A stretch of 64,000 nt of DNA from NCBI GenBank assembly GCA_015039365.1, contig WION01000019.1, positions 186,001-250,000 of the forward strand, read 5' to 3'. The notes under the pieces were generated by a model. The model was not told where the DNA came from. It was given only the letters and a program-made list of their open reading frames with translations, and did not search any database. The position numbers and the translations under genes are program-made. Positions within the stretch are counted from its first letter, which is position 1; every line of letters begins with the position of its first letter. Of the stretch, positions 3,590 through 63,846 are shown one piece after another. The stretch comes from Amanita rubescens. Its lineage: Eukaryota; Basidiomycota; Agaricomycetes; Agaricales; Amanitaceae.

Positions 3590-5639
3590 ATGAATGCCAG
3601 TTTCAATCATAGTACTTTCAATGAGATCCATGGCAACTATGTATGTATTCAGTTTGCATTGAGAGTTGACTTTATTCAAATACAAAACCAGAATCAGGAT
3701 ATACATAGTATGTCTGAATCACTAAGTCATAATTTTGTCTTAAATGTTATATCAAGTAAATACTACAGAACTTCTTGGTTTGTAATATTTTGTGATGCTT
3801 CCACCATGCATAACCCTAGTACTCTTACAGAAAAGTTCAAAAAATGGTTGAATGCACCTGACCCTTCAATCAACCACAACAATATTAGAAAGAAACATTA
3901 TAAAGGCACTGGTCAATGGCTACTTGGTGATGAGAGATATGTTGCTTGGAAGGAACAATCTAATTCTTTCCTGTGGATCAATGGCATATGTAGGTGATGC
4001 TTTCTAAGTTTATATAATGGTATGATGACCCAATAATTAAAAGCTGGTTGTGGGAAGACAATCATTTGGTGACTATACATATCTCTGTCATCTTTTGCTA
4101 ACCAAAAGTTGAGGAGAGAACAGTTCCACAGTCATTGAAGATCTCAAAGCCATTGTTAAGAATCAGCCTGAAATTGGCTTTGCCTATTTCTATTTTGACA
4201 TCAATGACTCAGCAAAACAGACTTCTAGAGGTCTTCTTTCATCTTTAGTGTTAAGTTTGACAGCAAAGTCCAAGGATTATTCTCTGTTGGAAAGGCTTTA
4301 TAAGGAACATGACCAGCTGCACAAGCCAACAGAGGATGAACTCCTCCATCTGTTTATGAAACTTCTGCAATGCTTCAAGCAAGTTTATGTGGCTATTGAT
4401 GCACTGGATGAATGTGATGGTTATGACCAATTATTTGATCAAGTGATCAAAGTTATTCATGGATGGCAGTTACCACATTTTCACCTTTTGGCAAGCAGCA
4501 GGAGAGAGCAACACATCAATGCTACCATAGGAGAGTTTACTCCAACAGAAATATGCCTGTCTGCAGAGCTAGTTCAAAATGACATCATATATTATGTCTA
4601 TTCAGTTGTTGGAAAAGATCATAGGTTGAAGAGATGGGATCACACAATACAAGAACATGTGAAGAATGCCCTAATTAGTGGTGCAAAAGGAATGTATGTA
4701 TGATTATATTCATTATTGTGATTATGTTCACAGTACCTGAAAGGTTTCGTTGGGTTGCATGCCAATTTGAAGAGTTGAAGCACTGTCCAAATGAGAAGGT
4801 ACTTATGGACACATTGAAAAGCCTTCCAAAGAATTTAGGGGCTATATATGATCAAATACTTCAGAGGATTGATGAAAGAGAGATGTCATCAGCAAAAGTT
4901 ATTCTACAATGGTTGATACTGGGAAAACAACCTTTGACAACAGAGGAACTAGCTGTTGTTTTGACATTTGATCCATCCACTGGCAGTTTTGATCCCAGAT
5001 TGCAGTTGCCTGATCTTGATGATATAATACAACTGTGCTCCAGTCTTGTAATAAAGACCTATGGAGACAGAGTTCAACTAGCACATGCATCTGTGAAGGA
5101 GTACTTCCTTTGCAATACATGGAAGATAGGATTACCAGATGCACAGTCAGGCCATACTTCCATTTCTCATTGCTGTTTGAGGGATCTTCTGCAAAATGCT
5201 AGACCATGGGATCAATTGTTTGTGGATACAAGGCATTTTCCCCTCTTGCATTATTCTGTTAGATATTGGATAGATCACTACAAGCTTAGCAACAAGAATG
5301 AAATTTTGCAGGGGATTGTGACAACATTTTTCCTAAATGAAGATGGTACATTTGGGAGGTGGATAGATTGTTATAAGCAGTTTGATAAAGTAAATGAAAT
5401 ACCATTATATGATTATGAAAGATGGATGAAAGACAATAAGAAGTTTGATACAGTAAATCAAACAGGGTTTGGTAAAAAAATATCACCACTTCATTATGTT
5501 ATACTACTTGGACTACAGGACATTATGGAGGATTTACTCATAAGATATCCATGGTTTTTGGCATGTAATGAAAATCTCTATGTTGCAGCAGCAATGGGTG
5601 GAGATAGTGACATTATGAAGTTTTTCTTGGACATAGGAA

Positions 5640-6243
5640 CCAATGTAAATAAAGAGGATAATTGTGTTGGGAATGCATTAGAAGTTGCAATTGTTAAGGG
5701 ATATGTTGAAATTGTCAGACTTCTCTTGAACAGGCCCAGAGCAAATGTCAATGCTCAAGGTGTAGAATATAGTAATTCACTGCAGGCTGCAATATCTGAG
5801 GGACATGTTGAAATTGCCAGGCTTCTCTTGGATAAAGGAGCAGATGTGAATACACAGAGTGGAATGTATGGAAGTGCATTGCAGGCTGCAATATCTAAGG
5901 GACATGTTGAAATTGCCAGGCTTCTCTTGGATAAAGGACTCACAGATGTGAATGCACAGGGTGGAAAGTATGGAAATGCATTGCAGGCTGCAATATCTGA
6001 GGGACATGTTGAAATTGCCAGGCTTCTCTTGGATAAAGGAGCAGATGTGAATACACAGGGTGGAATGTATGGAAGTGCATTGCAGGCTGCAATATCTAAG
6101 GGACATGTTGAAATTGCCAGGCTTCTCTTGGATAAAGGAGCAGATGTGAATGCACAGGGTGGAAAATATAATACTGCATTGCAGGCTGCAATATCTATGG
6201 GGCATGTTGAAATTGCTAGGCTTCTCTTGGATAAAGGAGCAGA
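5640..6243 (+). repeat. Ankyrin repeat array, left part
   Basis: Tandem units of about 33 codons (99 nt) follow the ankyrin pattern, for example ALQAAISKGHVEIARLLLDK followed by GADVN. The last five units are nearly identical at DNA level, including synonymous sites, which points to recent unit expansion or gene conversion. One unit carries two extra codons (around 5938-5945). Confidence 0.85.
6239..6243. repeat. Target-site duplication, left (GCAGA)
   Basis: The five bases GCAGA sit directly before the left LTR and occur again directly after the right LTR at 14366-14370. A 5-bp duplication is usual for Ty3/gypsy integrases. Confidence 0.9.
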
Positions 6244-6697
6244 TGTTACGAACTCGTTAATCTCAACTTAAGTTGCAGCGGCAACTCTAGTCACGATTAC
6301 AAGTCTTAAGTCAAACGTTAAGATTATAAGTTCAATACTAAGTCAATGCGTTGACTTAGTATCTGAGGACGATTGTGGTAGATGAGTTTTAAGAGTACGG
6401 TTATATTGCCTGACGACAATAAACAGCTAAGTCGAACTTAGGGTTCGACTCTAGAATACATGCGGTATTTATACTAGCAAGTACAATGAGACGTACTAAT
6501 TAATGAATAATGGTGAGTACGAAAGTAAGTACAAGGACGGCGTCATATGTGGAACAAGGGATGGTATAAACAAGTAAACGAGTTAGTCCGTATGAATCGA
6601 GCATAAGGGGAGCGACGAGTAAGGTATGCATAAAGAAAATAAACATGTCCGACGTATCATGTAAGCATAATGCGGGAGTCCGTACCGTGTTGTAACA
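6244..6697 (-). repeat. 3' LTR of the retrotransposon
   Basis: 454 bp, starts TGTTACGAAC and ends GTTGTAACA on the plus strand. It matches the LTR at 13912-14365 base for base as read here. Short inverted ends (TGTTAC / GTAACA) are visible. Confidence 0.93.
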
Positions 6698-8487: not shown

Positions 8488-11400
8488 TCAGAGTTTCCTT
8501 CGTCTTTTATATTCTAGAAGGAGATCTTCCATATGCGTCAAGTTATTTTCTGGTTCCCATGTGTTTTCGCTGGTGTCATAGCCTTTCCACTTTACTAGGA
8601 ATTGTAATTTCCTTCTAAACTTGCGATGTGCAAGCAGTGCTTCCACTTCGTATTCTTGTTCTCCTTCGATCAGATCGGGAGGGGGCCTTGTTTCCGTTAT
8701 TCCGTGAAAGGAAGTTTCTTTGAACGGTGTTAGTAAGGCGGCGTGGAATACATTATGAATTTTCCATTGTCTTGGTAGCGTGAGACGATATGTCACTGGT
8801 CCTAAGACTTCTTTGATGGAAAAGGGACCTTCTCGTTTAGGTGCGAGCTTTCTGCTCTGATAAGGAATCTTCAGGTTCCTAGACTCTAACCATACTTTGT
8901 CATTGACTTTGAACGGTTTAGTCTTTCTCGTTGTTCTTTCCATCATCTTAGCTCGTGCTAGATCATGTGCGGCGAGTGCTTCTTCTCGTGCGCGGAACAA
9001 GGAGTTGATGCGGTTATCGGCGGTTGGTGTATTTGTCTTGTTTGAGACAAGGGGGAGTGCAACCGGGGATGTTCCATACATCAATTGAAAGGGCGATTGT
9101 TTCAATGCTTCATGAGTGCGTGAATTATGCGCGAATTGTGCTATTGGTATCATCTTGTTCCAAGTATCTGGTTCATAGGCACAGAATATTCGGAGATAAG
9201 CTTCTAATTCGGCGTTATATCGCTCCGTTTGTCCATCAGTCTGTGGATGGAAGGCGGTACTCATTTTGTGTTTGATTTTTAATGAGTTCATTATGCCGTT
9301 AAAGACGTGTGATGCGAACTGTGGTCCTCGATCGGAGATCATGACGTTGGGTAAACCGAAGTTTTTGAATACATTCCGAATGTAGAGGTCGGCGGTTTCG
9401 TTGGCGGTGATAGTTTTGTTACAAGGCATGAGAATTACTCCCTTTGTAAGTCCTTGATCGACCACGATAAAGATAGAATCGAAACCGTTACTTGTGGGTA
9501 AATCGGTTATGAAATCCATAGTTATTTGTTGAAAAGGTCGGTGTGCGTGAGACTTGATTGGCATCAGAGGTGCGGCAGTAGGGTGTGTATTCGATTTCAT
9601 TTGTTGACATGCCGTGCATCCGTCAATGAACTGTTTAACCATTTTAGACATTAATGGCCACCAGTAATATTCCTTTAATAAGGCGAGTGTTTTGAAGAAA
9701 CCGGGGTGTCCGCTTGTTGGTGATTCATGAAAATCTCTGATAATATCTCGGCGAAGGTCGGTGTCAGGGGGAATAAAGGATTTCCCTTTGTACAGGATTA
9801 ATTCATCGTCAAGGGTCCAATCAGAAAGGGCAGTGCGTAAGGGTGGTGTTCCCTTTTCTTTTAGACATTTCTTGATTGATTGAGCAAATTCGTCTTTGAC
9901 AGTTATTTCTATTGCTCTGTTACGGAGATCTTCGGCGATTGTGCGAACAAAGAGTTCTTTTGGGAGCATTGTTATTAACTCTTCTGGTTCGTCTTTTGTC
10001 ATATGATCGGGTCGGCGGGATAGTGCATCCGCTATTATTAGTTTTGCTCCGGGAACGTGGGTTAATTTTATATTAAATCGAGACAAGTCGTTCCACCATC
10101 GTGCTTGGCGGTTTGTAAGACGTTGTGGTTCTCGATAATAGAGTAAATTCTTGTGGTCGCAATGAATAATGACAGGGTGTTCTGCTCCTTCAAGCAGGTA
10201 TCTCCATTCGTTATAAAGAGCGTAGTAAATGGCGAATAACTCTCGGTCGTAGATTTGCCATCGTGTTTCAGTTGGCGTTAAAGCGTGGGATAGGTATCCG
10301 CATGGGTGTAAGTCGCCATTATCGTCTTTTTGCATAAGAACTGCTCCGATTGCGCGGTCTGATGCGTCTGTTTGTAGGATAAAGGGTTTGTTAACATCGG
10401 GCATCATTAAGACAGGTGCGGATGTGAAGCGTTCTTTTAATAGATCAAATGCGACTTGGCATTCTGCGGTCCATGTCCATAATTTGTTTTTCTTTGTTAG
10501 GTCGTGCAGGGGTCGTGCAAGGTGGGCGAATCCGAAAATAAACCTTCGATAGTAATTTCCGAATCCTAAAAAGGATCTAACTTGTTTAACGGTAGTAGGG
10601 GTTGGCCAGTCCCTGATTCCGGCAAGTTTGATCGGGTCCATTTTTATTGTATTTTTGGATATGACGGTGCCTAGAAAATCAACTTCTTGGGCAGCGAATT
10701 TACACTTTTCAAGCTTGAGGTAAAGATCGTGTTTCTGTAATCGTTCAAGTACTTGTTTTGTTCGAATCTCGAGTTCTTCTTTAGTGTGCGCATGTATTAG
10801 CATGTCATCCATATAGATGACAAGCCATCCTTTTTCCGTAAAATCCCTGAAATAATCGTCCATCATAGCTTGAAACGTTGCTGGTGAATTTCGTAATCCA
10901 AAGAACATGACGTTAGGTTCAAATAAACCTCGATTGGTGATAAAGGCGGCTTTCCATCTGTCAGATTCCTTGATTTGAACGTTATTATATCCCCATCGGA
11001 TATCCAATTTTGTAAAGTATTCCGAATCTTTGAGTTTGATCATAAGATCGGAGATAAGAGGTAATGGATATGCGTTTGGTTTAGTATATTCGTTCAAATA
11101 TCGATAATCTTGACAGGGTCGTAATTTTTGTGCTTCTTTCTTTTCTACAAAGAAGAAAGGTGATGCCTGCGGTGATTTCGACGGTCTGATGTAGCCTTTT
11201 TCGACGTGTTCTTTAATCCATTCATCCAGTGTATTCTGCTGTTTCGGAGATAAGGGATAGATTTTTCCTCTTTTTGGTATGAAATCATCGCGAAGTTCTA
11301 TCTGGTGATCCCAAGATCGGCTTTCTGGGAATCGTTCACTTGCTTTTTTCTCGAATACGTCTTTCCATGCCGAGTATTCAGGAGGGAGTGTGTAAACCTC

Positions 11401-12093
11401 CTCTGTTTGATGGTATTTGTGTTCCATTTGTTGAGCTGGTGTATATCGTGCGATAGTTACTTGGTCATATTCGTCTTCTGACCAGCTTCCTATATCCTCA
11501 AATGTATGCGTGTTCCATCCGTGATCTGTCGTCTGTGATCCTTTGTGTGACATCAAATATCCGATGACAAGATCTTCTTCCTGTTCAGGCATAGCTATTC
11601 TGTCAATCTGTTGACAGATGCTCCGAAGTGATGCCTTGATTTTGTCCTGTTCAGAGTCTCGGAACTCTAGAGTCTTTTCTCTCCAATTTACGTCAGGGTT
11701 ATGCTTCTCTAGCCAGGGAAGCCCCAGTATAATCGTTTGTTTTCCTATTGCTGATACGTGAAACCATTCGGTCATGCGTTTTCCGTTCATTTCGAAGGTG
11801 ATTAGACATTGTTCATCAATTTCTCCTTCTTTGTTTATGGTGCCATCGACGTTATAAACTCTAATTGGTCGTGGAGTTTTTCGTTTTCTCCATTTGTGTG
11901 CTATCCTCTTGTCGATAAATATCCCTTCGGCTCCGCAGTCGACAAGGGCAACGAGGTTTTCAGTGTTGTTTTCAGTTTCAACTTTGATAGGGACAGATAA
12001 TCTTCGTTTCGAAATAGATTGTACTGTTACATGAGATATATTGAGAGTTGAATCTGGTGTATCTGAGACTTCATCCACTGTCATGAGTCCCAC
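8488..12093 (-). CDS. pol: Pol polyprotein (PR-RT-RNaseH-IN-chromodomain)
   Basis: About 1,201 residues. Domains in order: retropepsin-like protease with the variant DCGAEG; reverse transcriptase with LRPCQDYRYLN and the catalytic YMDD in VIYMDDML; RNase H with ILQTDASDRAIGAVL; the integrase zinc motif (H..H..C..C around HESPTSGHPG and CTACQQMK); the integrase core starting TMDFITDLP; and a C-terminal chromodomain (FLVKWKGYDTSENTWEPENN). The gag stop is at 12096-12098. The pol frame lies -1 to gag, is open across the gag stop, and the local sequence is a run of five T before the stop, so -1 slippage at TTT or reinitiation at GTG 12093 or ATG 12084 are both possible. The chromodomain classes the element as a chromovirus. 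Confidence 0.95.
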   Translation of the reverse strand: MGLMTVDEVSDTPDSTLNISHVTVQSISKRRLSVPIKVETENNTENLVALVDCGAEGIFIDKRIAHKWRKRKTPRPIRVYNVDGTINKEGEIDEQCLITFEMNGKRMTEWFHVSAIGKQTIILGLPWLEKHNPDVNWREKTLEFRDSEQDKIKASLRSICQQIDRIAMPEQEEDLVIGYLMSHKGSQTTDHGWNTHTFEDIGSWSEDEYDQVTIARYTPAQQMEHKYHQTEEVYTLPPEYSAWKDVFEKKASERFPESRSWDHQIELRDDFIPKRGKIYPLSPKQQNTLDEWIKEHVEKGYIRPSKSPQASPFFFVEKKEAQKLRPCQDYRYLNEYTKPNAYPLPLISDLMIKLKDSEYFTKLDIRWGYNNVQIKESDRWKAAFITNRGLFEPNVMFFGLRNSPATFQAMMDDYFRDFTEKGWLVIYMDDMLIHAHTKEELEIRTKQVLERLQKHDLYLKLEKCKFAAQEVDFLGTVISKNTIKMDPIKLAGIRDWPTPTTVKQVRSFLGFGNYYRRFIFGFAHLARPLHDLTKKNKLWTWTAECQVAFDLLKERFTSAPVLMMPDVNKPFILQTDASDRAIGAVLMQKDDNGDLHPCGYLSHALTPTETRWQIYDRELFAIYYALYNEWRYLLEGAEHPVIIHCDHKNLLYYREPQRLTNRQARWWNDLSRFNIKLTHVPGAKLIIADALSRRPDHMTKDEPEELITMLPKELFVRTIAEDLRNRAIEITVKDEFAQSIKKCLKEKGTPPLRTALSDWTLDDELILYKGKSFIPPDTDLRRDIIRDFHESPTSGHPGFFKTLALLKEYYWWPLMSKMVKQFIDGCTACQQMKSNTHPTAAPLMPIKSHAHRPFQQITMDFITDLPTSNGFDSIFIVVDQGLTKGVILMPCNKTITANETADLYIRNVFKNFGLPNVMISDRGPQFASHVFNGIMNSLKIKHKMSTAFHPQTDGQTERYNAELEAYLRIFCAYEPDTWNKMIPIAQFAHNSRTHEALKQSPFQLMYGTSPVALPLVSNKTNTPTADNRINSLFRAREEALAAHDLARAKMMERTTRKTKPFKVNDKVWLESRNLKIPYQSRKLAPKREGPFSIKEVLGPVTYRLTLPRQWKIHNVFHAALLTPFKETSFHGITETRPPPDLIEGEQEYEVEALLAHRKFRRKLQFLVKWKGYDTSENTWEPENNLTHMEDLLLEYKRRRKL

Positions 12094-12095
12094 TG

Positions 12096-13154
12096 TTAAA
12101 AATCCTCGTTTTCGTCGGCAAGAGATAGTAATAGATCATTCTTTTCGTCGATTGACATCCCTTTCATCAGCGCTCGGATGTTCTTGGTGTAATTTGGTTT
12201 AGACTCTCGGACTTCTTCTTCTTCCCAATTTCCGTCACCATCATTTGATGTGGCTCGAATGTGACGTTTGGGCGTGAATCCTCTTTTCCTTCCTCCTTTA
12301 AATCGGCCTTTCCCTTTGTTTCTTTTCTTCTTTGGGCATTGCCCTGACATGTGTCCTTTGATTCTGCAGATAAAACATAAACCGTCTTTGATGTAGCGTT
12401 CTCTTTCTTCTTTGGACATAGATCTGATCGTAAGTTCTAATTCTGGGTCTTCTTCGTGTTCTAGAAATTTATGATCGATCTGCATAGCCCATGATTCGTC
12501 GTTATGGGAGGATGATGAATGACCATTTCCAGATCGAGGGGAATAAGCATATGAACGGGTTCGGATGTTGTCGAGTTTGATAGCAATGTCGTACCAATCT
12601 TGCAGTGTTTTTGGGTTCATGAGCATTGCTTTTTCGAACTCGGGTGCTGTAAGTCCTTTTCCGAACATATGGAATGCTGCTTCTCCTTCGATTCCGGCTT
12701 TCGTGATTTGTTCCTTGAACTGATTAACGTAGTTAGGTAGGGTCATCTGTTTCTTTCCTTTCATAGACGATCTGTTCTGTAGATTGAGAATTTTTGTGTA
12801 TGCATTTCCACTTGGATCGACTTCTCCCCAATCTGTCAAGAATGACAGTTTAAATGCTTCCCAGTCATCGAATAAAGCAGGTCTCGTGACGCCTCCTTCG
12901 GTGGTGGCACGAGATTTTCGTAGTTCTGCTAATTTATTCTTTTTCCATTGTCTAGCTCCGTCTGAGATTTTATTCAGGGCGGCAAGGATTTTTAAACGGT
13001 CTGTGTTCATCCGTTCAGGGTTCATATCAAAGAAGATTTCGATATCTTCTATGAATGTGTTGGCGTCCTTTCGTTTCCCTTTAAATTCAGGAAGATCTCC
13101 GATGAGACTAGGGGTTCGTGGGTTAGATATGGGGTCTGTGCTTCCTCCAGACAT
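12096..13154 (-). CDS. gag: Gag-like capsid/nucleocapsid protein
   Basis: 352 residues from the first ATG. The central part (LPEFKGKRKDANTFIEDIEI onward) resembles the retrotransposon Gag capsid fold, and a CCHC zinc knuckle is visible in CFICRIKGHMSGQCPKK followed by a Lys/Arg-rich tail. The same frame is open for another 222 codons upstream (13155-13820) but has no ATG there. That upstream part encodes plausible protein (for example RIWEDTGGNPVKEQEFWIPQ), so the true start may be non-AUG, or may be reached by splicing or frameshifting. Gag packages the element's RNA in cytoplasmic particles. Confidence 0.85.
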   Translation of the reverse strand: MSGGSTDPISNPRTPSLIGDLPEFKGKRKDANTFIEDIEIFFDMNPERMNTDRLKILAALNKISDGARQWKKNKLAELRKSRATTEGGVTRPALFDDWEAFKLSFLTDWGEVDPSGNAYTKILNLQNRSSMKGKKQMTLPNYVNQFKEQITKAGIEGEAAFHMFGKGLTAPEFEKAMLMNPKTLQDWYDIAIKLDNIRTRSYAYSPRSGNGHSSSSHNDESWAMQIDHKFLEHEEDPELELTIRSMSKEERERYIKDGLCFICRIKGHMSGQCPKKKRNKGKGRFKGGRKRGFTPKRHIRATSNDGDGNWEEEEVRESKPNYTKNIRALMKGMSIDEKNDLLLSLADENEDF

Positions 13155-13911: not shown

Positions 13912-14365
13912 TGTTACGAACTCGTTAATCTCAACTTAAGTTGCAGCGGCAACTCTAGTCACGATTACAAGTCTTAAGTCAAACGTTAAGATTATAAGTT
14001 CAATACTAAGTCAATGCGTTGACTTAGTATCTGAGGACGATTGTGGTAGATGAGTTTTAAGAGTACGGTTATATTGCCTGACGACAATAAACAGCTAAGT
14101 CGAACTTAGGGTTCGACTCTAGAATACATGCGGTATTTATACTAGCAAGTACAATGAGACGTACTAATTAATGAATAATGGTGAGTACGAAAGTAAGTAC
14201 AAGGACGGCGTCATATGTGGAACAAGGGATGGTATAAACAAGTAAACGAGTTAGTCCGTATGAATCGAGCATAAGGGGAGCGACGAGTAAGGTATGCATA
14301 AAGAAAATAAACATGTCCGACGTATCATGTAAGCATAATGCGGGAGTCCGTACCGTGTTGTAACA
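13912..14365 (-). repeat. 5' LTR of the retrotransposon
   Basis: 454 bp, identical as read to 6244-6697. It would carry the element's promoter and RNA start. The bases just inside on the minus strand (ATTAAGTCGAACTTATCAAT) should hold the primer-binding site; I could not match them confidently to a tRNA 3' end. Confidence 0.93.
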
Positions 14366-14370
14366 GCAGA
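14366..14370. repeat. Target-site duplication, right (GCAGA)
   Basis: Perfect copy of the five bases at 6239-6243, directly after the CA end of the LTR. Confidence 0.9.
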
Positions 14371-15870
14371 TGTGAATGCGCAGGGTGGAAAATATAATAC
14401 TGCATTGCAGGCTGCAATATCTATGGGACATGTTGAAATTGTTAGGCTTCTCTTGGATAAAGGAGCAGATGTGAATGTACAGGGTGGAAAATATAATACT
14501 GCATTGCAGGCTGCAATATCTATGAGACATGTTGAAATTGCTAGGCTTCTCTTGGATAAAGGAGCAGATGTGAATGCACAGGGTGGAAAATATAATACTG
14601 CATTGCAGGCTGCAATATCTATGGGACACATTGAAAATGCCAGGCTTCTCTTGGATAAAGGAGCAGATGTGAATGCACAGGGTGGAGAATATAACACTGC
14701 ATTGCAGGCTGCAATATCTATGGGACATGTTGAAATTGCCAGGCTTTTTTTGGATAAAGGAGCAGATGTGAATGCACAGGGTGGAGTGTATGACAATGCA
14801 TTGAAGGCTTCAATATCTATGGGACATGTTGAAATTGCCAGGCTTCTCTTGGATAAAGGATCAGATGTGAATGCACAGGGTGGAAAATATAATACTGCAT
14901 TGCAGGCTGCAATATATAAGGGACATGTTGAAATTGCTAAGCTTCTCATGGATAAAGGAGCAGATGTGAATGCACAAGGTGGAATGTGTGGAAATGCATT
15001 GCAGGCTGCAGTATCTATAGGACATGTTGAAATTGCCAGGCTTCTCTTGGATAAAGGAGCAGATGTGAATGCACAGAGTGGAATGTGTGGAAATGCATTG
15101 CAGGCTTCAATATCTAAGGGTCATGTTGAAATTACCAGGCTTCTCGTGGATAAAGGAGTAGATGTGAATGCACAGGGTGGCATGTATGGAAATGCATTGC
15201 AGGCTGCAATATTTATGAGAAATGTGAAAATTGCCAGGCTTCTCTTGGATAAAGGAGCAGATGTGAATGCACAGGGTGGAGAATATGGTACTGCATTGCA
15301 GGCTGCATCATATAAGGGTCATATTGGAATTACCAGGCTTCTCTTGGATAGTGGGACAGATATCAATGCACAGGGTGGAATGTATGGAAATGCATTGCAG
15401 GCTGCATTATATCAGGGTCATGTTGAAATTGCCAGGCTTTTGTTGGACAAAGGAGCAAATGTGAATGCAAAGGGGGGAAAGTATGGCAATGCATTGCATG
15501 CTGTGATATATAGGAATTGTCATGTTGAGATTACCGTGACTAGGCTACTGTTAGACAAAGGGGCAGATGTGGATGCACAGTGTGGTCCTTATGGTCCTGC
15601 ATTGCAAGCTGCATCATACAATGGTCACACTTCAATTGCCAGGCTTCTCTTGGATAGAGGTGCAGATGTGAATGCCATAGGTGGAGAGTACAGCAATGCT
15701 TTGCAGGCAGCATCAGTTGCAGGTCATCTTGAAATTTGCAAACTTCTTCTGGACCAAGGTGCAAATGTGAATGTTCAGGGTGGAGCATATGGCACTGCAT
15801 TGAAGGCTGCATCAATCTTTGGTCACACCATGATTGTCGAGCTTCTATTAGAAAATGGAGCAGACTCTAT
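14371..15870 (+). repeat. Ankyrin repeat array, right part
   Basis: About fifteen further ankyrin units of 33-35 codons in the frame of the NLR-like gene. Units close to the insertion are nearly identical; those toward the C-terminus are more diverged, which suggests expansion in the middle of the array. One unit near 15510-15540 has extra residues (RNCHVEITVTRLLLDK). Confidence 0.85.
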
Positions 15871-16182
15871 AAATGATGAAGGTAAGGCAATCATGCCCCA
15901 GATTTCACATATTTTCACAGCATATTGACATTACAAAACTTTTATCAGGGAAGAATGATTCCAATATGCAAGATCAGGATGGAGATATTGAAATGCTATG
16001 ATACATACTTTGAAGTTGGTTAAGTGTAAAAACACTTTTTCCCCGTGTTTGAAACTATGACAGAATGAAATGTACATAATAATTTAGAACTAGGCAAATC
16101 TACGTATATGATGTACTGTCTACCCAAGCCATTTGCGATAGTCTGATCATAAAGGAATTGTGTACTTGTGCTATCGAGTGCA

Positions 16183-46198: not shown

Positions 46199-47130
46199 GG
46201 TGGTGACCCGGTGACGGTGACGGGAAATGGTGCTGGCGAACTGCGGGTCGCACTGCGGCACACGTGGAGATGACGATGGCGACTCAGCGCTCAGAGGCTG
46301 TGATGCGACCACGACAAACTGTTCCAGGATTTCCACTGCTACCACTTACAGGCTCAAGCGTTCATCCCTATCTGTCAATGTCACCGCGGATCTCGTCGGA
46401 GCGCAGCCGGTCAAAGGTTATCTTGCCTCCGGTGCCGGTGGCGTCGAAGCCCGATAAAAATCGCGCTTAGCTGTCAGTCACAGTTGGTGCAGCGTTAGGT
46501 TAGGACTCGCGCAGACTTCGATTGCAATGTCTAATATCAGACAACAATGATCAACCTGAATTCAATGTTTCCTGGTGTTTTGATAAAAGGGTCGGGGCCG
46601 GCGCACTCGGTGATGTACCCCTCACTGATCCAGATCGCCGTCCACAATACGAAGCTCGAATTGAAAATAGCGCTTCGGTTGCGTTTGTCGCAAGCAAGAT
46701 GCATTTTTGTCAGAGCCATAGAAACTAACAGTCTACTGGTAAATCAAAAGAAAGCATAAACACATCAGCATCAAGAAAAGTTGTTGGTACAGCTTGAAGG
46801 TGACAAGATTAGGATAACAATTGGAGTTTTATCCTAAGAATGAAGCTTGCATAGGCATTGTATGATGGGAATGAAGAACATACCAGAGTCAGATATGGGT
46901 AATTTGATCATACAAAAACACAAACAGATCATCTGGATCTGAAGGTAACAATGCAGGATTAAGGTGATTCTTCACTTTCTCAACATTGCCCTGCTCCTTG
47001 AACTGCTTCAAAGCTTCCATCATTGATTCATCAACTGATTTCATCTTCACCCAGAATGCCTGCCTGACAATGATGAGGATAGCTTGAAAGTGTCAGCTTA
47101 TAAGAAAGTAAATTAGGCAGGATGCATTAC

Positions 47131-50100
47131 TGGCTAAGATTTGGCAGCCTATGAGCTAATTAAACCAATATTAACTATATTAGTCCAGATACAAGTTAGA
47201 ATCTCACAGTTGTTGAAAGCCCATCTGTTTCTTTTCCAAACAACACAAGAATTTCATCCTAAAGATGACAAAGGTGAAATTATAAGGCCAGTTCAGCACT
47301 AGACCTACAACCTGACATGAAGATGAAGATGCCTACTAAACCATCATCTTGAATTATGTGCTTACCTAAACAGAAGGAAAATTAGAAAAATTGCTATAAA
47401 TGAACAGTTGAAGTTGTATTGTACAATCTGTACACAGGTGACAGTAGTATCATCATTAAAATCTAAAATGTTGCACATTGATCCCACTTACTGGCTGTGA
47501 AATTCAGATGGAGACATGGCATTGCTAAAAAGAATGAGGGTTTCTCACACCCTGTTTTGATCACCAGATAATATGAGAAGGCACTCTACAGGTTAAATTT
47601 GAGGGACTTACAAACTGTTGTCAATGTCATGTTACACTGAGATCTCTCTACTAGATATATACACAAATTGGCACTTACATTCTGTCAGTCATAATAAGAC
47701 TGCTGCCTGGATGAAAGAAATGTGCTATGCATGACATACATACTAGGATTCATTGGTGGGATATTTATAGGAAGATGAAATGCAGTGCCACTCACATTCT
47801 ATCCATCATTTATACAATGAGAGAGCTTGGCAAAAGACAGTGTGATAATGCCACTGACATACTATTTATTATATCAAGTGATGAGGCCCCATGCTTGCCA
47901 AAAAATGCTACTTACTACCTGTTATTGATCACAGAAATGGATTTATGAGACTTCCTAATGAATCAAAGTAAGGTGTCACTTACACTTGGCAGGTATGGGC
48001 CGCCACTGCGTGCGGCAGGTCCGAGGCCAGATCTTTTTTTAAGCGAGTCAGGATGTGGCTGTGTTTGTTTGGCCCAGCAGTGTCTTAGCAAATAGCAAAA
48101 ATTCGCAAAGATGTGTAGCCTGCCAGCATAAGAATGATTGTTTACTTAAATAGACAAGTACAATGTCATTATGCTGATTGTAAATTTATAGAAGAGAATT
48201 TCTTTATGTGTAAACCACAGGTGCACGAGAGCGAGGTGACGATGTGTACCTCGAGTGATGCTTATTTGGCTAAGCTTGGCAAGTCGCGGCTCGGCAACTG
48301 CCGTTGTCTTAGAATCGCGTTACAAAAATCGCTGCGATCTGGAGGTTATAAAGCCGAAACCTCATTTCATTCGGCCTCGGAATACTGTTGACATGACATA
48401 GAATATGTCAAATTGTTAAGACCACCTGGCAGCAAAAAGTGTCATGCTGCTCACATGCTATCATGGTTGTTGGATTAAACAATGGTTAAGATTGCTTTGA
48501 AAAGTGCTGTATCACTTACCTGCTGTTGATGACTCTGAGATTATACTTTTAAGCAAGTAAAAGCAAAGTGAGCTTACTACCTGTCAGACAAGTCATGATA
48601 CTCCACAAGTCTTTGAAAAAGAGAATGTCACTCACTCCCTGTTATTCATGGAATAAGATAAAATGGGAACAGATAGTAAAATAGTAGTATTACATCTTCC
48701 TATTGGTCATGAGCTGGGTATGATTACATGGAAGACAAAAGTGGATTATACATACCCCCTGGTGATTACAGGATGAGATCTATTTAATAAAGGAAAGAAT
48801 GGTATCACTTACTGTCTATTTATCATAAGATGAGTTTGCATAGAATATGAAAGTATATTGACACTCACATACTGTTAATCATAACATGAGAAGTGATGGT
48901 GGAAAATACAATGCTACTCACTGCCTGAGGATTATTAGAGGAGTTGTGATGAAACTGATTGCAATAAAAAGTGGCTCCTCACTCACTTCCTATTGGTTAT
49001 TGAGTTGTGAAGACTAGCCAATAAATATGATTAATGTGTCACTCACACCCTGTTGTTTATTATATGCTATGAGAGGGGAAAATGGCAGGAAAAGGTGTAA
49101 TTGCTCACTTCCTGTTGGAGATTGAATATGTGGTGTCACTATCTGGTGAGAGTGTGCTCTGGTGTAATATCACTCACTCCCTGTTGGTCATAGGATTGGA
49201 CAAGATTAGACTGCCAGAAACAGAAGGTAGAGTGCTACTTGCTTCCTTTTAATCATGACACAATATATGAGATGACATTGTTAGACAACTGTTCAATGTC
49301 ACTTACTAGCTGATCATCAAGAATGAGTTGCAGTGTGTGTGATGAAACTGCCTCATGACATCACGTACAAACTTTTGGATTACATACACATGTAAAAATG
49401 TGTATAACTTCCTGAAAAAGAAGAAAGGTAGCTCACAAGCTATAGTTCATGTCATGAGATATGCTGAAAGCCTGAAACTGTCTGATGGATGGAAGTTCAC
49501 CCACATCCTATTAGTTATAAAATGGGATTGGTGAGAATGTCCATAGCCTGAGAGGACCAAATGCAGTTTACTCACATACTGGGTAATGTGAAAAGGTCCA
49601 ATGAGATTGCCCTGAAGACAAAATTACAAAGTCACTCACATCCTAATGAATATTTGATGAAACAGAACACTACCAGATGAAAGTCACATTCACCTTCTGT
49701 GGGTCATGGGATGCAACTTTCCAGCAAATACCCAGCAAATATGTTATGCTGCTCACCTCCTGTTTACAGTGGTGTAATGTGGCCATGAGGTTGCCCAGCA
49801 GATGAGATCACAGTGCCACTTACAAGCTAAATATTGTAGTGGTGGTGGATGACAAGGGATTGCCTTGAGAGAAAAGGTGGGGTTGCTCACATACTGAACG
49901 GGATGTGATGTGATTGTGAATGGAAAATTAAATAACCTCACATTCTAATATGATACCACATGGTGAGACTGCCTACCAGAAAAATAGTGAAGTTTTACTC
50001 ACTTCCTGAAGGCAATGAGAAATACTTCATGAAATATGCAGCACTGTCTTACTTTCTGTTGATCATGGATGATATGTGATACATAACTTACTTGGCAGGA

Positions 50101-51444
50101 AAGTGTACATTGCCATTCATAAAGTGAAAAGTCACATGTCACACACATACTGTTGGTAAAGAAAGGGGGGATAAATGATGTGTTTGGCATGCCCCAGGAA
50201 AAAAAGTACAATGTTACTTACTTCCTGTTAGTCATGGAAAGTAATGTGGTAAGACTTGGTGGCAAACAAAAGTAAAGTGTCACCTACATTCTTTGCACCA
50301 TATGGCATGGGGTCAGGTGATCACTGCCATTGTGAAAAAACAAGTATGGTATGACTCACTCTCTGTTGGTGATGGAATAATGGAATCAGAATTGCTTAAG
50401 AAAATGACACTGTTACTTGCTTCCTGTTGGTCAGGTATTATTTCTAAGACTGTCCATTAACAAACAAGCAGCACCACTAACTTTCTATGTATATTTAACA
50501 GTCAGACATTCAGAGAAATATGCAGTTATACTTACAAACTTTTGGCCAATGGTTATGATGTAAGTTGTGATTAAATGTTATGTTTAATAAAATGAAGCAT
50601 TACCCACCCACTGTTGGTCATGGGATGTTCATAAATGTTTGCTTTGCTGATAAAACCGATGCTTCACATACTTTCTGATGCAGACAGTGGGATGCAAGTG
50701 AGACTCGAATAAATTCTCTACTCACTTCCTATTGTTCATGATGGAATGCAATTTGATGATATTGTTGGTCAGAAAATGCTGTTGCTCATTACTCACATGC
50801 TGTTAATCATCAGAAGAGACATGATGAGACTACTACTTCTTCTTTGTATCACATTGAATGACACTCACATACTGTTTGGACTGAGACTTGATGAGACTTC
50901 ATACAAAGATTGTGTACTGACATCCTGTTGCAGTTGCAAAGTGCTGCATGTATGTGCAGAAATAGAGAACTTACATCCTACATATTGGTCATCATGTGAC
51001 AAAAGGAATTGCTTATAAGTGCAGAAGCACTCACCTCCTGGTACAATGGGCTATCTACATTTCTGAAAGTTAAGTATCACTTACAGTCTGTGTTGGTTGG
51101 CATGAGTTGTGTGACTAGAAATGGGGAAGTTACACGTACTTGCTTTTGGCAATGCAATCAGACCTCAGTGGTATCATTCACTGAACATCACATACCCACT
51201 TTTGTCTATTGCATTAGATGGGTTGCATGTGCAGTTATAATATTGCTCACTTTCATCAAAAAATGCTAGATTCAACATTGCATTATATTAGCATTCCAGG
51301 GTTAAGCAGAATTATGTACATCCTATTTGTCATGGTATTTAGAAAATGACTTTACAGCAAGACAGTGCACTCACACTCTGATTCATATGTTTTACCATCT
51401 ACTATTTGATCTTTGAAAAGCACAGGACTTACCTTTTTGATGAA
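47131..51444 (-). other. Array of single-codon micro-exons, copy A
   Basis: On the minus strand about 57 sites read [C/T/A]AG-NNN-GT[G/A]AG, with exactly three bases between acceptor and donor, at a spacing of roughly 50-70 nt. Examples on the plus strand: ACTCAC TTC CTG at about 49103, TGCTCACATACTG near 49882, CACTCACTCCCTGTTGGTCA at 49171. Four other exons are 6 nt (near 48693), 12 nt (51433-51444), 15 nt (51251-51265) and, at one unit (47364-47367), zero nt (AG directly followed by GT). All lengths are multiples of three, no triplet is a stop, and flanking exons join in phase 0. The longest run of decoded residues, from near 50.87 kb down to 49.69 kb, begins YHEKWFKERNEYKENYLEKD. Acceptors share TGACCAACAG-like ends. 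Confidence 0.72.
47985..48382. other. 398-bp insertion in one micro-exon of copy A
   Basis: Copy B reads CACTTGCA|TACTGTTG at this place; copy A has 398 bp between the matching CACTTACA and TACTGTTG. The insert is more GC-rich than its surroundings in parts, and has no obvious target duplication, LTR or terminal inverted repeat. It changes the AG-to-GT distance from 3 to 401 nt, which breaks the frame. It could be a short non-autonomous element or filler from repair. Confidence 0.8.
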
Positions 51445-52965
51445 CTTGCCTGGGCTTAACTTCTATCTTGTCAAAGGCATTTACACTTACCCAAAAGTAT
51501 GGAAAGCAGTTGAGGGCATCCCAAATAACTTCACTCCATGAACGCCCATGATGAACCAAGGCTTGTCTGAAAATTATCAAAATTCATAGCTGGAAATTGG
51601 AATATGAGATTTTATGACACTCACTTAAGGGCTGACTTGACACAAAGATTAAGGTTGTTCATTTGTGTTGAGACAAAAAGCTCATATAGGCTGGAATCAT
51701 TAATTGCATCAGCAGTTTTCTCAGTCAGTTCAGGACAGTCCATCTCTGGTGTATCCAAGTCTGTTGAGTCAGTGATAAACAAGAAATTTACTGTATCAGG
51801 ATATGGGCATCTATCATGAATGTTACTTATCCACACCTTGCAAGTGCACATATGCCTTTGGAGGAAATTGAGCATTTAAGACTTTGGAAAGGAATGCCTC
51901 CTGGAAGATAATATCAGCTTTTTCTTCAGCTTTAGACCACCTAGTATCTGATCCATCTTGTTCTTCATTCAATTTAGCATATTCCTGAATCACCAGAGCA
52001 TCGAATTTGGTGAATGCATTCACCAAAGGGACTGCGAACATCCCATTTAGGACACTATCCAAATTCAATAAAAGCAGAAAATTGTCTCAGCTTACCTTTC
52101 CCTGTCCCTTTAGTAAAGAACTCAAGTTCTGATGATAGAATGGGGCGAGAGTCATCCATGGGTATGCAATACCTAAGAAAATGTTGAAACTGGCCATGGC
52201 CATATAGAAAAAGTAAAGAATACCAAATTGCATGCAACTGATCTCCTACTTCAATTGCAGCAGATTGCCTCTCAATGAATTTCCAAACATCCTGAAGCTC
52301 CTTGTTGTCCCCAGCTTCAAACCCCTGTGAATCATGGAAGATAAAGTTACTTCCAGGGTAAGTAATCTGGTGCTCTATATCATGTAGGCCTCGCTGAAAA
52401 TATTGCATATCAATCCTAAGCACAGTTTATGCAGTTTACTCACCTCCATTGATGGTGCCAAATGCAATGAAGAAAGTTCTGATTATAATTTATCTGTGTC
52501 AAAAGGGTGCCAACCCCATGTAGTACACTGGATGAAAATTGGCAAGCATACCTTCAAGCTCAACACCATTCTGGTCATATATGATGGGCTTTGTCCCCTT
52601 TGCTACACCACAAACCTTCTCAAGGATGGTGGTCTTGCCCGCATTGGCCCTTCCTATGATAAGAATACGGAAATGGTGGCATTTGTATCACTCTTTGAGC
52701 ACATTAATGGAGCCTACATGATGAGAAATTTGAAGAGTTACTAGTAAATGTTAGTGTATGCGGATTGCGACGTACATGATTCATTTGTGATAGAAGCCTC
52801 TGACTGCAACATGAGTTTCAAGTTGCTTGCGCTGGACGGACACAAGTCCTAGATACGGAAGACAGCCCATCAGAGTGGACCAATGTTTGCAAAGTAGGAA
52901 AAAATACATTACTAGAGAGCCATGTTCAAGAAGCGACGAGGTAGGGGGTCGGATTAAAGCGGACA

Positions 52966-58320: not shown

Positions 58321-61300
58321 TCAAATATGGGAAATCTGATCATACAGAAACATAAACAGATCATCTGGATCTGAAGGTAGCAATGCAGAATTTAGGCAAT
58401 TCTTCACTTTCTCAACATTGCCCTGCTCCTTGAACTGCTTCAAAGCTTCCATCACTGATTCATAAATTGACTTCATCTTCACCCAGAATGCCTGCTTGAC
58501 AATGATGAGGATAGCTTGAAAGTGTCAGCTTATAAGAAAGCAAATTAGGCAGGATGCATTACTAGCTAAGATTTGACAGCCTATTGGCTAATCAAACCAA
58601 TATCAGCTATGTATATATGTATTAATCCAGATAAAAGTTAGAATCTCACAGTTGTGGAAATCCCATCATCTGTTTCTTCCCCAAACAACACAAGAATTTC
58701 ATCCTAAAGATGACAAAGGGTGAAATTCTAAGGTCAGTTCAGCACTAGACCTACAACCTGACATGAAGATGAAGATGCCTGCTGAGTCATCTTAAATTGT
58801 GTGCTCACCTAAACAGAAGAGAAATTAGAAAAATTGCTATGAATGACAGTAAGTTGTGTTGTACAATCTGTACACAGTAGTATCATCATAAAAAAATCTA
58901 GAATGCTATACATGTGTCCCACTCACTGGCTGCGAAATCCAGATGGAGACATGTAATTGTTAAAAAGAAAGAATATTTCTCACAGCCTGTTTTGATCACC
59001 AGGTGAATGAGAGAAGAGAGTCTACAAGTTTGACAGATATGAGTAACTTACAAACTATTGTCAATGTCATTCTATGGTGAAATCTCTACCAGATATATGC
59101 ACACAAACACTTACATCCTGTCAGTCATGAAATCAGATGGCAGCCTGGATAAACAAAATGTGTGTTGTATGACATACATACTAGCATTCATTGGTAGAAT
59201 ATGTTCAGGAAGGTGAACTTTGGAGTGCCACTCACATCCTATTGATCATTCATGTGACAACTTGGTAAAAGACAGTGTGATAATGCCACTGACATACTAT
59301 CCATTATATCAAGTAATGAGACTAAATGTTTGCCAAAAAATGGTACTTACTTCCTGTTATTGGTCATGGAAATGGACTAATGAGAAACCTAGTAAATGAA
59401 AGTAGGGTGTCACTTGCATACTGTTGACATGGCATAGAATTGTCAAGACTGCCATCCAGAAAAAAATGTCATGTTACTCACACGCTACTTGTTGGAAGAG
59501 ACATGGTTAAGACTGCTTTGAAAAGTGTTGTGTCACTCACCCACTGTTGATGCCTCAGATTATGCCCTTTGAGCAAGTAAAAGCATAGTGGACTTACTTC
59601 CTGTCAGTCACAACATGACAAGTCATGATACCCCCTCCCCAAAAAAAAGTGTATGCCACTCACTCCCTGTTATTCATGGAATAAGGTAAAATAAGGATAG
59701 ATCATAAAATAGTAGTATTACTTCTTCCTGTTGGCCATGAGCTGAATGTGACTACTTGGACAAAAGAGCATGATACACACCAACTGATGATTAAAGGATG
59801 AGATGTATCTGATGAAGGAAAGAAGGGTATCACTTGCTATCTGTTTATCACAAGATGCCAAGTCTGTATAGCATATGAAAGCATATTGTCACTCACAAAC
59901 TGTCAATCATAGCATGAGACATGATGGGTCTGGCAGAAGGAAGGAAGTAATGCTAGTACTCACTGCCTGAGGATTATTAGAGGGTTGTGATGAAACTGAT
60001 TGCAAGCAAAAGTGGCATCCTCACTCACATCCTATTGATTATTGGATGAGTTGTGAAGACTAACTAGTAAACATGATTACTGTGTCACTCACACTCTGAT
60101 GTTTATGAGACAGAAAATTGCCTGAAAAAGGTGTAATGGCTCACTTCCTGTTGGAGATCGAATATGTGGTGTCACTATCTGTAAAAGTGCAATATCACTC
60201 ACTCCCTGTTGGTCATAGGATTGGACAAGATAAGACTGCCAGAAATGAAAGGCAGAGTGATACTTGCTTCCTTTTAATCATGACACAAGATGTGAGATGA
60301 CATGTTAGACAAGTGTCCAATGTCACTTACTAGCTGATCATAAGGATGAGTTGTGTGTGTGATAAAACTACTTCATAATATCACTTACAAACTTGTGGAT
60401 CACATATGTAAAAATTGTACAACTTCCTGTAAGAGAGGGAAGGTGGCTCACAAGCTATGGTTCATGTCATGATATGCTGAAACTCTCTGACAGATGGAAC
60501 TTCACTTACATCCTGTTAGTCATAAAATGGGTTGGTGAGACTGCCTGTCACCTGGGAGAACCAAATGAAGTTCACTCACATACTGAAATTGAAAGGTCCA
60601 ACTTTGAGACTGCCTTGAAGACAAAATTACAGCATCACTCACATCCTAATGAATATGGGATGAAAGGAAAGAAGACAGCTAGATGAAAGTGGCATTCACC
60701 TTCTGTTGGTCATGGGGATTTGACATCCAGCAGATATCCAGCAGATATGTTATGCTGCTTGCCTGCTGTTACAGTGGAGTGTTGTGATGAGGTTGCCCAG
60801 CAGTGAAATCACAGTGATGCTTACAAGCTAAATATTGTATGAAAAGGATAGCCATATGAGAAAAGATGGGGTTGCTCACATACTGAATGGAATGTGATGT
60901 GATGTGCAACTGGGAAATAAAGCATCACTCACATTCTTTGATATGATACAACATGTGGTGAGACTGCCTATCAGAAAAATAGTGAAGTTTTACTCACTTC
61001 CTGAGGGCATATGTATGATAAGAATACTTCATTACTTAAATATGTTGTCTTACTTTCTGTAGATCATAGATAATATGTGATAAATTTGGCAGGAAAGAAT
61101 ACATTGCCACTCACTTTCTGTTGAGAATATGAAGTGCAATGAGATGGCCATTCATAAAGTGCAATGTCACTTGTCACATACATACTGTTGAAGGGTTGGG
61201 GTGTAAAGAATGTGCTCAGCACACCTGAGAAAGAAAAAGAGTACGGTGTCACTTACTTCCTGTTAGCAATGGAAAGGGATGTGGTAAGACTCCTTTTTGG

Positions 61301-63846
61301 CAAATAAATCAATGTGTCACACACCTTCTTTGCATATGGCATCATGGGGTTAGATGATCACTGCCACTGTGCAAAAAACAAGCACAGTATGACTCACTCT
61401 CTGTTAGTGATCAAAGGTAGTAATGGAATGAGAATAGCTTAAGAAGAGGATGATACTGTTACTTACCTCCTGTTGGTCAGGTATCATTTCTGAGAAAACT
61501 GTCCATTAACAAAAAAGCAGTGCCACTAACTTTCTATGTAGATTTAATAATGGGTTGTAGTCAGATGTGGGTCAGAGAATACTTACAAACTGTTGGCAAT
61601 CAGGTGTGATGTTGTGATTAAACATTTTGTTTCACCCACCCACTGTTGGTCATAGGATGTCCATTTGAAAATATTTGCCTAATAGATAAAACCAATACTT
61701 TACACACTTTCTGATGTGGATGGAGGGATGTAAATGAGGCTTAAGGACCTATGTAGATTCTTTACTCACTTCCTATTGTTCATGGAATGCAATCAATGAC
61801 ATTGTTAAAATGCTGTAATGTTACTCACATGCTGTTAATCATCAGAAGAGACATGATGAGAGTACTTCCTTGTATCAAATTGAATGACACTCACATACTG
61901 TTAATTTGGAATGAGACTTGATTAGATATAAAGATTAGTGCACTGACATCCTTTTGGTTGTGAAAGCATATCAGCATGTACTAATGTGCAGAAATAAGTT
62001 TAATAGAGCACTTACTTCCTGCATATGTATCGCACATTAATGTGACAAGAAGGATTTGCCTATAGGTACAGTAGCACTCACCTCCTGGTACAATGAGCCA
62101 CCTTATGTACATATCCAAATGTCAAGTAGTACTTACAGTCTAATTGTTGGCATGAATTCTGAACTAGAAATGGGACAGGTTCACGCACTTGCTTTTGGTG
62201 ATGCAATCAGACCTCATTGGCATCAGTTATATCTCATCATCACTTACCCACTGTTGTCTATTGCATTAGATCTGGTTGCAGGTGCAGTTATAATATTGCT
62301 CACTTTCATCAAAAAATGCTATTTTCAAGAAAATTGCATCACTATGTCAGCATACCAGGTTGAGCAGAACTACACACATCCTTCACCATGGTGTTTAGAA
62401 AATAAAATTTACAGCAAAATGTGAAAGTGCACTCACATTCTGATTCATGTTTTTTGAACATCTACTGTTTTAGGTATGGCTATGAAAAGCACAGTACTTA
62501 CTTTTTTGATGAACTTGCCAGGGCTTAACATTACTAGTCTTCTCAAAGGCATTTACAGCTTACCCAAAAGTATGGAAAGCAGTTGAGGGCATTCCAAATA
62601 ACCTGACTCCATGAAAGCTCATGATTAACTAGGGCTTGTCTGAAAATTGTCAAAATTTATCACTGGAATTTGGAATGTGACTCTCACTTAAGGGCTGACT
62701 TGACACAAAGATTAAGATTGTTCATTTGTGTTGAGACAAAGAGCTCATATAAGCTGGTATCATCAATTGCATCAGCAGTTTTCTCAGTCAATTCAGAACA
62801 GTCCATCTCTGGTGTATCCATGTCTGTTGAACAATGTATTAGTATCTCTCATGATTCAAAAAATGTTAATTATTTTCACCTTGCAAGTGCACATATGCCT
62901 TTGGAGGAAATTGAACATTTAGAACTTTGGAAAGGTATGTCTCCTGGAAAACAGTGTCAGCTTTTTCCTCAGCTTTAGCCCACCTATCTGATCCATCTTG
63001 TTCATCATTCAATTTAGCATATTCCTGAATCACCAGAGCATCAAATTTGGTGAATGCATTCACCAAAGGGACTGTGAATATGTCATTTAGGACACAAAAA
63101 TGAAATCAATAAAAGCACTGGATTTATTTGTGTCAGCTTACCTTTCCCTGTCCCTTTAGTAAAGAACTCAAGTTCTGATGATAGAATGGGACGAGAGCCA
63201 TCCATGGGTATACAATACCTATGAAAATGTTGACCAACTGGCCACGGCCATGTAGAAAAAAAATAAGAATACCAAATTGCATGCAACTGATCTCCTACTT
63301 CAATTGCAGCAGATCGCCTCTCAATGAATTTCCAAACATCCTGAAGCTCCTTGTTGTCCCCAGCTTCAAATCCCTGTGAATCATGGAAGATAAAGTTACT
63401 TCCAGCATATGTAATCTGGTCCTCTATATTGTGTATGCCTCGCTGAAAATATTGCATATCAATCCTAAGTTTCATGCAGAAGTTTACTCACCTCCATCGA
63501 TGGTGCCAAATGCATTGGCAAAAGTTCTGATTATTGGTGTCAAAAGGCAACCGCGGCCCCATAGTGCAGTACAGATGAAGATCAAGCATGCCTTCAAGCT
63601 CAATACCATTTTGATCATATACGATGGGCTTTGTCCCCTTTGCCACACCACAAACCTTCTCAAGGATAGTGGTCTTGCCTGCATTGGCCCTTCCTATGAT
63701 GAGAATGCGGAAATGGCGGCATTTGTATCGCTCTTTGAGCATATTAACAGAGCCTACATGATGAGAAATTTGAACTAGTAAATGACAGTGTATGCAGATT
63801 GCAACGTACATGATTCATTTGTGTTAGAAGCCTCCGACTGCGACAT
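58321..63846 (-). CDS. P-loop GTPase with one-codon exon array, copy B (appears intact)
   Basis: Exon 1 is 63846-63810 (MSQSEASNTNES), exon 2 is 63753-63592 with the G1 motif IIGRANAGKTT. It ends in an unusual GC donor (GAAG|GCATGC). Later exons carry NFIFHDSQGFEAGDNKE, SRPILSSELEFFTKGTGK, VNAFTKFDALVIQEYAKL (G4 TKFD), FPPKAYVHLQG, MNNLNLCVKSALK and ALNCFPYFW. Then come the micro-exon array (62513-58563), a 54-nt exon at 58703-58650 (DEILVLFGEETDDGISTT) and the last exon 58491-58321 (AFWVKMKSIYESVMEALKQF onward, stop TGA). The predicted length is about 420 residues, normal for these HSR1-like GTPases. No in-frame stop was found in the conventional exons or micro-exons. GTP binding is expected from G1 and G4; the cellular role is unknown. 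About seventy introns are implied if all units splice as drawn. Confidence 0.72.
58563..62513 (-). other. Array of single-codon micro-exons, copy B
   Basis: About 59 AG-NNN-GT sites, each opposite a site in copy A, plus one extra unit (AAA codon, 61115-61117) missing from A. Exons of 6 nt (near 59731), 12 nt (62502-62513) and 15 nt (62304-62318) and the zero-length unit (58807-58810) are in the same order as in A. Decoded residues in the best-conserved part run YHEKWFKERKEYKKENYLQK. About nineteen triplets differ from copy A, many conservatively (Asp/Asn, Asp/Glu, Tyr/Phe, Ser/Asn, Glu/Gln), none to a stop. Some donors are GC (GCAAGT). Sites 53 to 66 nt apart predominate, matching the usual intron size in this genome. 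Confidence 0.75.

Follow-up and report, generated by a model that had tools for sequence, protein, structure and literature searches.

A tandem intron-plus-codon array very likely encodes a 69-residue segment of a GTPase in Amanita rubescens

The short exons of schistosome micro-exon genes and aphid bicycle genes are as a rule longer than a single codon, and they encode proteins other than the one considered here, a GTPase of the basidiomycete Amanita rubescens. The closest described system is found in the truffle Tuber melanosporum, whose immune-type NACHT-ANK (nank) genes contain tens of codon-sized, alternatively spliced microexons (Iotti et al. 2012, as summarized in passages of the citing papers PMC3689799, PMC4986451 and PMC10197012); this precedent overturns the statement, made in a preliminary description of the present locus, that no gene with tens of 3-nucleotide (nt) exons is known. 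In plants, microexons of 1–15 nt demonstrate that exons down to 1 nt can be spliced (PMC8831610), and introners reportedly integrate into numerous genes (PMC9860276). Here we analyze a window of 64,000 nt (C101:186001-250000) from the 75.7 Mb A. rubescens assembly, which was also the genome searched throughout. A 3.9 kb stretch on its minus strand, hereafter W1, consists of intron-plus-codon units arrayed in tandem, and its tiny exons are very likely spliced into a 69-residue segment of the GTPase.

W1 is flanked by ordinary exons that are both in phase 0, one ending in FPYFW (at 62564) and the other starting with DEILV (at 58703), and it comprises 62 introns and 61 tiny exons, with the first donor at 62563. 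In the curated model, 58 of the tiny exons are exactly 3 nt long and the remaining three, of 12, 15 and 6 nt, are likewise in frame, so that the joint peptide, FIKKNDHFLMKWQTEEDYHEKWFKERKEYKKENYLQKDYDLFLEGESDAFILEEGEWRYEYDYDFAPIV, has 69 residues. The introns measure 49–72 nt with the single exception of one of 107 nt, and all donors are GT except for four GC. The preliminary description had counted about 59 single-codon exons, which is nearly exact, and the phase-0 flanks and peptide that it gave (YHEKWFKERKEYKKENYLQK) agree with the translations of the flanks and with the curated model. It had also remarked on the lack of stop codons, and indeed the 58 triplets include no stop.

The spacing on which this model is built is highly unusual: YAG-3-GTR occurs 51 times on the minus strand of W1, whereas the first 57 kb of the window predict 4.5 occurrences, and the other strand has one. 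Tandem Repeats Finder reported no array over W1, and the units must therefore have drifted apart in sequence, with donor, acceptor, and spacing persisting. The chain of introns was built by dynamic programming favoring 3-nt exons, after which three exons were placed by hand. When a flat prior without this preference was used instead, 3-nt exons still accounted for 42 of the 58 intervals between introns in W1 and, in the sister array C1:31k, for 43 of 50, the longer intervals being ordinary exons or skipped units. Across six regions, the flat-prior chains scored 198–299 in the forward direction, 47–120 when the same sequences were read backwards, and 5–15 on the reverse complements. The AG/GT inside the 107-nt intron is possibly a zero-length exon, a recursive splice point, or a stwintron; the segmentation program placed a zero-length exon near the end of 10 of the 18 arrays, within an enclosing intron of ~105 nt.

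The strongest evidence that the triplets form one reading frame comes from open reading frames (ORFs) of the same family, which run long through the array region on short JGI contigs. C1:31k, segmented without any protein knowledge, yields 50 one-codon exons that read DWFESADNAAAKERQYYDDGVHA-GYGYYGGEKISEKERDKRKDFVEREIL (five further chain exons of 18, 12, 6, 4, and 0 nt were omitted from the comparison), and P0033, an ORF of 478 codons on a 1,486-nt JGI contig, reads DWFESADDAAGKEREYYDDGIHSGGYGYYGGKKISEKERDHRRDFVEREIL. The two are identical at 42 of 50 residues with a score of 231, where the best of 2,000 order shuffles reached 69, and the agreement extends over almost all of the array, interrupted by one gap. 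The first matched D precedes the omitted 18-nt exon KHNEVD, which resembles KHNEID in P0033; excluding that D leaves 41 of 49. As a 1,486-nt contig is too short to hold ~50 introns, the P0033 molecule is contiguous across the array segment. It is most likely a spliced transcript and less likely an intron-free genomic ORF, and the triplets of C1:31k are codons either way. Since the codons of this sister array match a contiguous ORF in order, such exons are very probably joined by splicing to give a rapidly changing protein segment, and the proposal that the triplets are codons of one frame is thereby upheld, together with the near absence of stops and of 2- and 4-nt exons described below.

Other arrays behave similarly, with 15 pairs exceeding all 2,000 shuffles when 11 arrays were compared with 11 ORFs: C1:31k with P0007, P0022, and P0033; C1:69k with P0022 and P0033; C1:105k, C1:134k, and C79, each with P0040 and P0086; C2 with P0007, P0022, and P0033; and C439 with P0033. 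Representative scores, with the best shuffle in parentheses, are 84 (51) for C1:134k/P0040, 87 (60) for C1:105k/P0040, 78 (48) for C1:105k/P0086, and 72 (57) for C2/P0033. For W1, the first 23 residues, FPYFW-FIKK-N-D-HFLMK-W-Q-T-E-E-D-Y, align to FPHYWYRRTNDHVLMKWDSDVNY of P0003 with a score of 83, which was reached once in 5,000 trials when the one-codon exons alone were shuffled and never when all exons were shuffled. The support that W1 itself receives from a contiguous ORF is limited to these residues. A protein search with P0033 recovered the query and a single A. rubescens model, P0121. Among 120 proteins listed, no NCBI Amanita model covers more than ~70% of the spliced query except P0037, in which the segment is skipped; this points to an array part that is missing or misread in many Amanita gene models.

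The architecture is not the oddity of a single gene but typical of a large GTPase family, with thousands of units in the genome. The pattern ACAG-NNN-GTRAGT-N36-66-AG-NNN-GTRAGT has 3,873 matches genome-wide and 2 in the reversed control, and the approximately 100 matches listed fall into some ten clusters on C1–C3. Changing the length of the first exon to 4 nt left 13 matches and changing it to 2 nt left 9 (0.3% and 0.2% of the 3-nt count). Restricting the triplet genome-wide gave no TAA, no TAG, and three TGA (reversed control of the TAA/TGA pattern, 2), compared to 140 TAT or TAC. For a pooled estimate we used 10 of the 18 arrays, excluding near-identical copies, haplotigs, and C408, and not including C13, C228, or C133; the pool still contains related paralogues (W1/W2 and C1:105k/C1:134k). 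Its 585 one-codon exons include no stop, although position-wise base use predicts 41.3 and each of 5,000 shuffles produced at least 24. Each of the 18 arrays taken singly is also free of stop triplets. Within 12 arrays, 688 of 725 inter-intron exons are 3 nt long, seven are not a multiple of 3, and six have zero length. The examined arrays sit mostly in paralogous GTPase genes, and the GTPase exons of the family have at least 318 matches in the genome, several contigs looking like mutual haplotype copies. The branch-point motif YTRAY lies no more than 40 nt from the acceptor in just 213 of 737 introns, and we therefore claim no branch points.

Comparison of array copies reveals both constraint and rapid change. 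In three recent copy pairs (W1/C181, W2/C775b, and C775b/C181b, picked post hoc from ten that were run, two of them sharing one copy), 3 of 498 codon bases differ as opposed to 259 of 8,778 intron-body bases (Fisher p 0.0007). C775a, which misaligns with W1 and with C181 after the loss of eight units, was excluded from this pooled test. That loss, also present in C630, is in frame and arose via a deletion joining two introns. Between C1:105k and C1:134k, the codons have diverged beyond the introns, with 32 amino-acid changes against 11.6 expected at the intron rate and no silent changes against 2.9 expected. Between the ORFs P0007 and P0022, identity is 96% ahead of the array and 94% past it, but 61% inside it, where they have 80 and 63 residues, respectively. 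The beginning of the variable segment is steadier: its start, WFEQGKKETDREI, is common to C79 and C1:134k and recurs with few changes in C1:105k and in the ORF P0040, so that the first array codons are conserved whereas later ones are not.

The host gene of W1 encodes GRANAGKTT (P-loop), FHDSQGFE, and TKFD, which we take to be GTPase-domain motifs. The A. rubescens protein P0001 is 94% identical to it over 59% of the query, and the Pfam family MMR_HSR1 matches below threshold. On the strength of this match and of a model resembling immunity-related GTPases, the host is of the P-loop GTPase type rather than NACHT-ANK. In the AlphaFold model of P0033, pLDDT is below 50 for most of the array segment, and the best structural matches are immunity-related GTPases (Irga6/IIGP1, Irgb6, Irgb10, and GM4951). 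The host may thus be an immunity-like GTPase, in which the array segment would lie between the GTPase domain and a C-terminal helical part as a flexible, rapidly evolving surface for recognition. To our knowledge, no one-codon exons have been described in immunity-related GTPases, nor has this GTPase family hitherto been known for them. As for the splicing itself, exon definition needs room within the exon, and because a 3-nt exon leaves no such space, splicing would proceed by intron definition, each of the 49–72-nt introns being recognized by itself. We infer that the W1 array is included in full in its mRNA.

Several observations weigh against this interpretation. The status of P0033 as a transcript is judged solely from the size of its contig. 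The one-codon peptides of W1, W2, C775b, and C8 exceed all shuffles for none of the 11 ORFs, the score of 39 for W1 against P0003 being reached by 202 of 2,000 shuffles, and a protein search with the W1 protein from residue 256 onward gave nothing up to E 10. The ORFs P0003, P0004, and P0013 stop or shift frame inside the array or close to it, and splicing may therefore be frequently unsuccessful or variable; the A. rubescens gene model P0037 skips an array-type segment altogether. W1 differs from its older paralogue C775b by 16 amino-acid changes and one silent change, which amounts to a constraint no greater than that on the introns. Two arrays, C13 and C408, hold 2- and 4-nt exons, and the joined exons of C408 contain stops in all three frames. 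Finally, the resemblance of the P0033 model to immunity-related GTPases is weak (TM 0.3–0.4, ~10–13% identity).

The frame disruptions in P0003, P0004, and P0013 would also be expected if alternative splicing picked among the one-codon exons to produce many isoforms per gene. This is the mechanism reported for truffle nank in the citing passages, and as nearly all exons are multiples of 3, skipping them would preserve the frame. P0033 and C1:31k nevertheless concur over nearly the whole array with one gap, and no two isoforms of the same gene were observed; we regard such selective splicing as possible, although on the unlikely side.

Young arrays bear on how such arrays may arise. An exact 62-nt intron occurs 41 times in C79 and 41 times in C13, with 352 exact copies in the genome, and an unrelated exact 60-nt intron occurs 51 times in C408 (C408:18800-24000) and 28 times in C133 (C133:78200-81000), with 159 exact copies in the genome. 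Nearly all of the ~100 copies listed for each intron lie head to tail, single listed ones being on C12, C353, and C397. This recurrence and the eight-unit loss support the earlier suggestion of a tandemly amplified intron-plus-codon unit. Yet the exons between identical introns differ: those with the same intron on both sides number 37 of 6 kinds in C13, 26 of 6 kinds in C79, 4 of 3 kinds in C8, 12 of 4 kinds in C228, 24 of 8 kinds in C133, and 48 of 15 kinds, including 2- and 4-nt ones, in C408. Plain duplication followed by random mutation can hardly be the source of identical introns around different codons, and the codon must therefore have been replaced, or spared from homogenization, at the scale of a single codon. 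The codons are not independent of each other's history, given the small codon sets inside arrays (CAA, CTA, CGA, and CTT in C13); the same upstream intron is followed by the same codon 1.2–1.9 times as often as by chance (0.20 against 0.12 in C79, 0.21 against 0.11 in C8, and 0.135 against 0.108 in C408). C408 and C133 share a 15-nt start exon, SINMT, without counterpart in the examined GTPase arrays, and a second gene family therefore appears to follow the same plan.

As all introns are in phase 0, the frame survives whenever units are gained, lost, or exchanged through intronic breakpoints, and the array would consequently act as a codon-by-codon diversity generator. We tentatively propose, as an idea that could well prove wrong, that intron-plus-codon cassettes are copied with the intron kept identical and the codon replaced, so that the GTPase family rewrites its recognition segment one codon at a time by intronic recombination with the frame intact. 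Both a hypervariable recognition function of the segment and a diversifying mechanism are inferred. The alternative that an introner-like element was inserted at each codon boundary of an older continuous exon would equally give identical introns around different codons, and it draws on the same 41, 41, and 51 exact copies in C13, C79, and C408 and on the 352 and 159 copies genome-wide. We know of no cause, however, for insertions spaced three bases apart and almost without exception in phase 0, and C775a and C630 changed by the loss of whole units. An unsplit or retrocopied P0033 segment, which might represent such a continuous exon, was sought in the organism's own genome and none was found, although the empty answer of this search is uninformative. 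Overall, we consider serial insertion unlikely.

The odd exon lengths in C13 and C408 and the stops in the frames of C408 mean that some arrays may be broken genes. That many arrays are decaying, their units being a selfish intron-plus-codon satellite tolerated since it is neatly spliced out, would accommodate these features, the inserted DNA in the second array of the window (W2, see below), and the weak amino-acid constraint between older paralogues. We find it distinctly improbable in view of the near absence of stops genome-wide, the purifying signal in recent copies, and the segment start that C79 and C1:134k have in common and that C1:105k and P0040 carry slightly altered. A non-coding satellite inside one long intron, with AG-NNN-GT merely part of the repeat unit, would suit the units that look alike by eye, the exact introns shared by young arrays, and the skipping in P0037, but it is rejected as extremely improbable on account of the stop depletion and of the codon string contiguous in P0033, which refutes it for C1:31k, and it sits poorly with donor, acceptor, and 3-nt spacing retained despite divergence of the intron bodies and with codons conserved more than introns in recent copies.

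The features of the window are collected in the table. W2 lies in a tandem GTPase paralogue; it carries ~398 nt of inserted DNA (about 48381-47984) without counterpart in the C775 and C181 copies and has one K unit fewer than these. The NLR-like gene in the window is near the type of gene that hosts microexons in the truffle. Elsewhere, two JGI proteins, P0104 and P0105, appear by eye to be nearer to non-Amanita GTPases; 252 of 301 aligned residues are alike in their GTPase parts, and the charged segments that follow are dissimilar. Given these two proteins, one-codon arrays may occur outside Amanita.

Table. Features of the analyzed window (positions in the window; strand as given)
Feature	Position	Strand	Basis
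GTPase domain exons (ordinary exons and introns)	62640..63846	-	start codon per A. rubescens protein record P0001
Last ordinary exon ahead of W1 (..QALVNHELSWSQVIWNALNCFPYFW), phase 0 end	62564..62639	-	translation
W1 array: 62 introns, 61 tiny exons, peptide FIKKNDHFLMKWQTEEDYHEKWFKERKEYKKENYLQKDYDLFLEGESDAFILEEGEWRYEYDYDFAPIV	58704..62563	-	spacing pattern, segmentation, curated model
12-nt exon FIKK	62502..62513	-	curated model
15-nt exon HFLMK; one-codon exons N and D precede, W follows	62304..62318	-	ORF P0003 reads YRRT-ND-HVLMK-W contiguously
6-nt exon GAAGAA (EE)	59722..59727	-	curated model
107-nt last-but-one intron, internal AG/GT at 58809/58808	58758..58864	-	segmentation, curated model
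First ordinary exon past W1 (DEILVLFGEETDDGISTT), phase 0	58650..58703	-	translation
Last exon, AFWV.., AFWVKMKSIYESVMEALKQF..DQISHI and stop	58321..58491	-	translation
W2, second homologous one-codon array, in tandem GTPase paralogue (gene region 46900-52900)	47259..51490	-	segmentation, copy comparison
NLR-like gene: NPHP3_N, winged helix, ankyrin repeats	4113-6271	+	Pfam
Ankyrin-like ORF	14339-15928	+	ORF list
Long ORF beside the ankyrin genes, Ty3-type retrotransposon polyprotein-like	8488-12135	-	by eye

Set beside the known systems, the A. rubescens arrays resemble schistosome micro-exon genes and aphid bicycle genes in their many short exons and fast-evolving products. Plant microexons are described as single or as two adjacent ones per gene, as opposed to tens here (PMC8831610). 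With introners the arrays share the presence of many near-identical intron copies in one genome, but nearly all listed A. rubescens copies follow one another head to tail, a single codon apart, whereas introners are said to hit many genes; the words "tandem" and "microexon" do not occur in the main text of the introner paper (PMC9860276). The likeness is greatest to truffle nank, which in the citing passages likewise has tens of 3-bp exons in an expanded fungal family and is said to diversify its sensing part; the A. rubescens arrays are of the same type in having tens of consecutive phase-0 3-bp exons in one reading frame. The truffle genes differ in belonging to the Ascomycota, in their NACHT-ANK host, and in the alternative splicing described for them, while the A. 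rubescens arrays are found in a basidiomycete GTPase. Arrays of identical introns, changes in unit number, and genome-wide occurrence in thousands are absent from the citing passages on truffle nank, and among the titles and abstract openings of the literature searched we found no one-codon exon arrays in a basidiomycete. If our interpretation is correct, exons of the minimum coding size would occur by the thousands in a second fungal phylum, making it possible to test how the spliceosome handles tens of serial 3-nt exons and whether introns serve as recombination spacers for single codons. As far as the literature was searched, what is new compared to the truffle is the phylum, the host gene family, the scale, and the arrays of identical introns around different codons.

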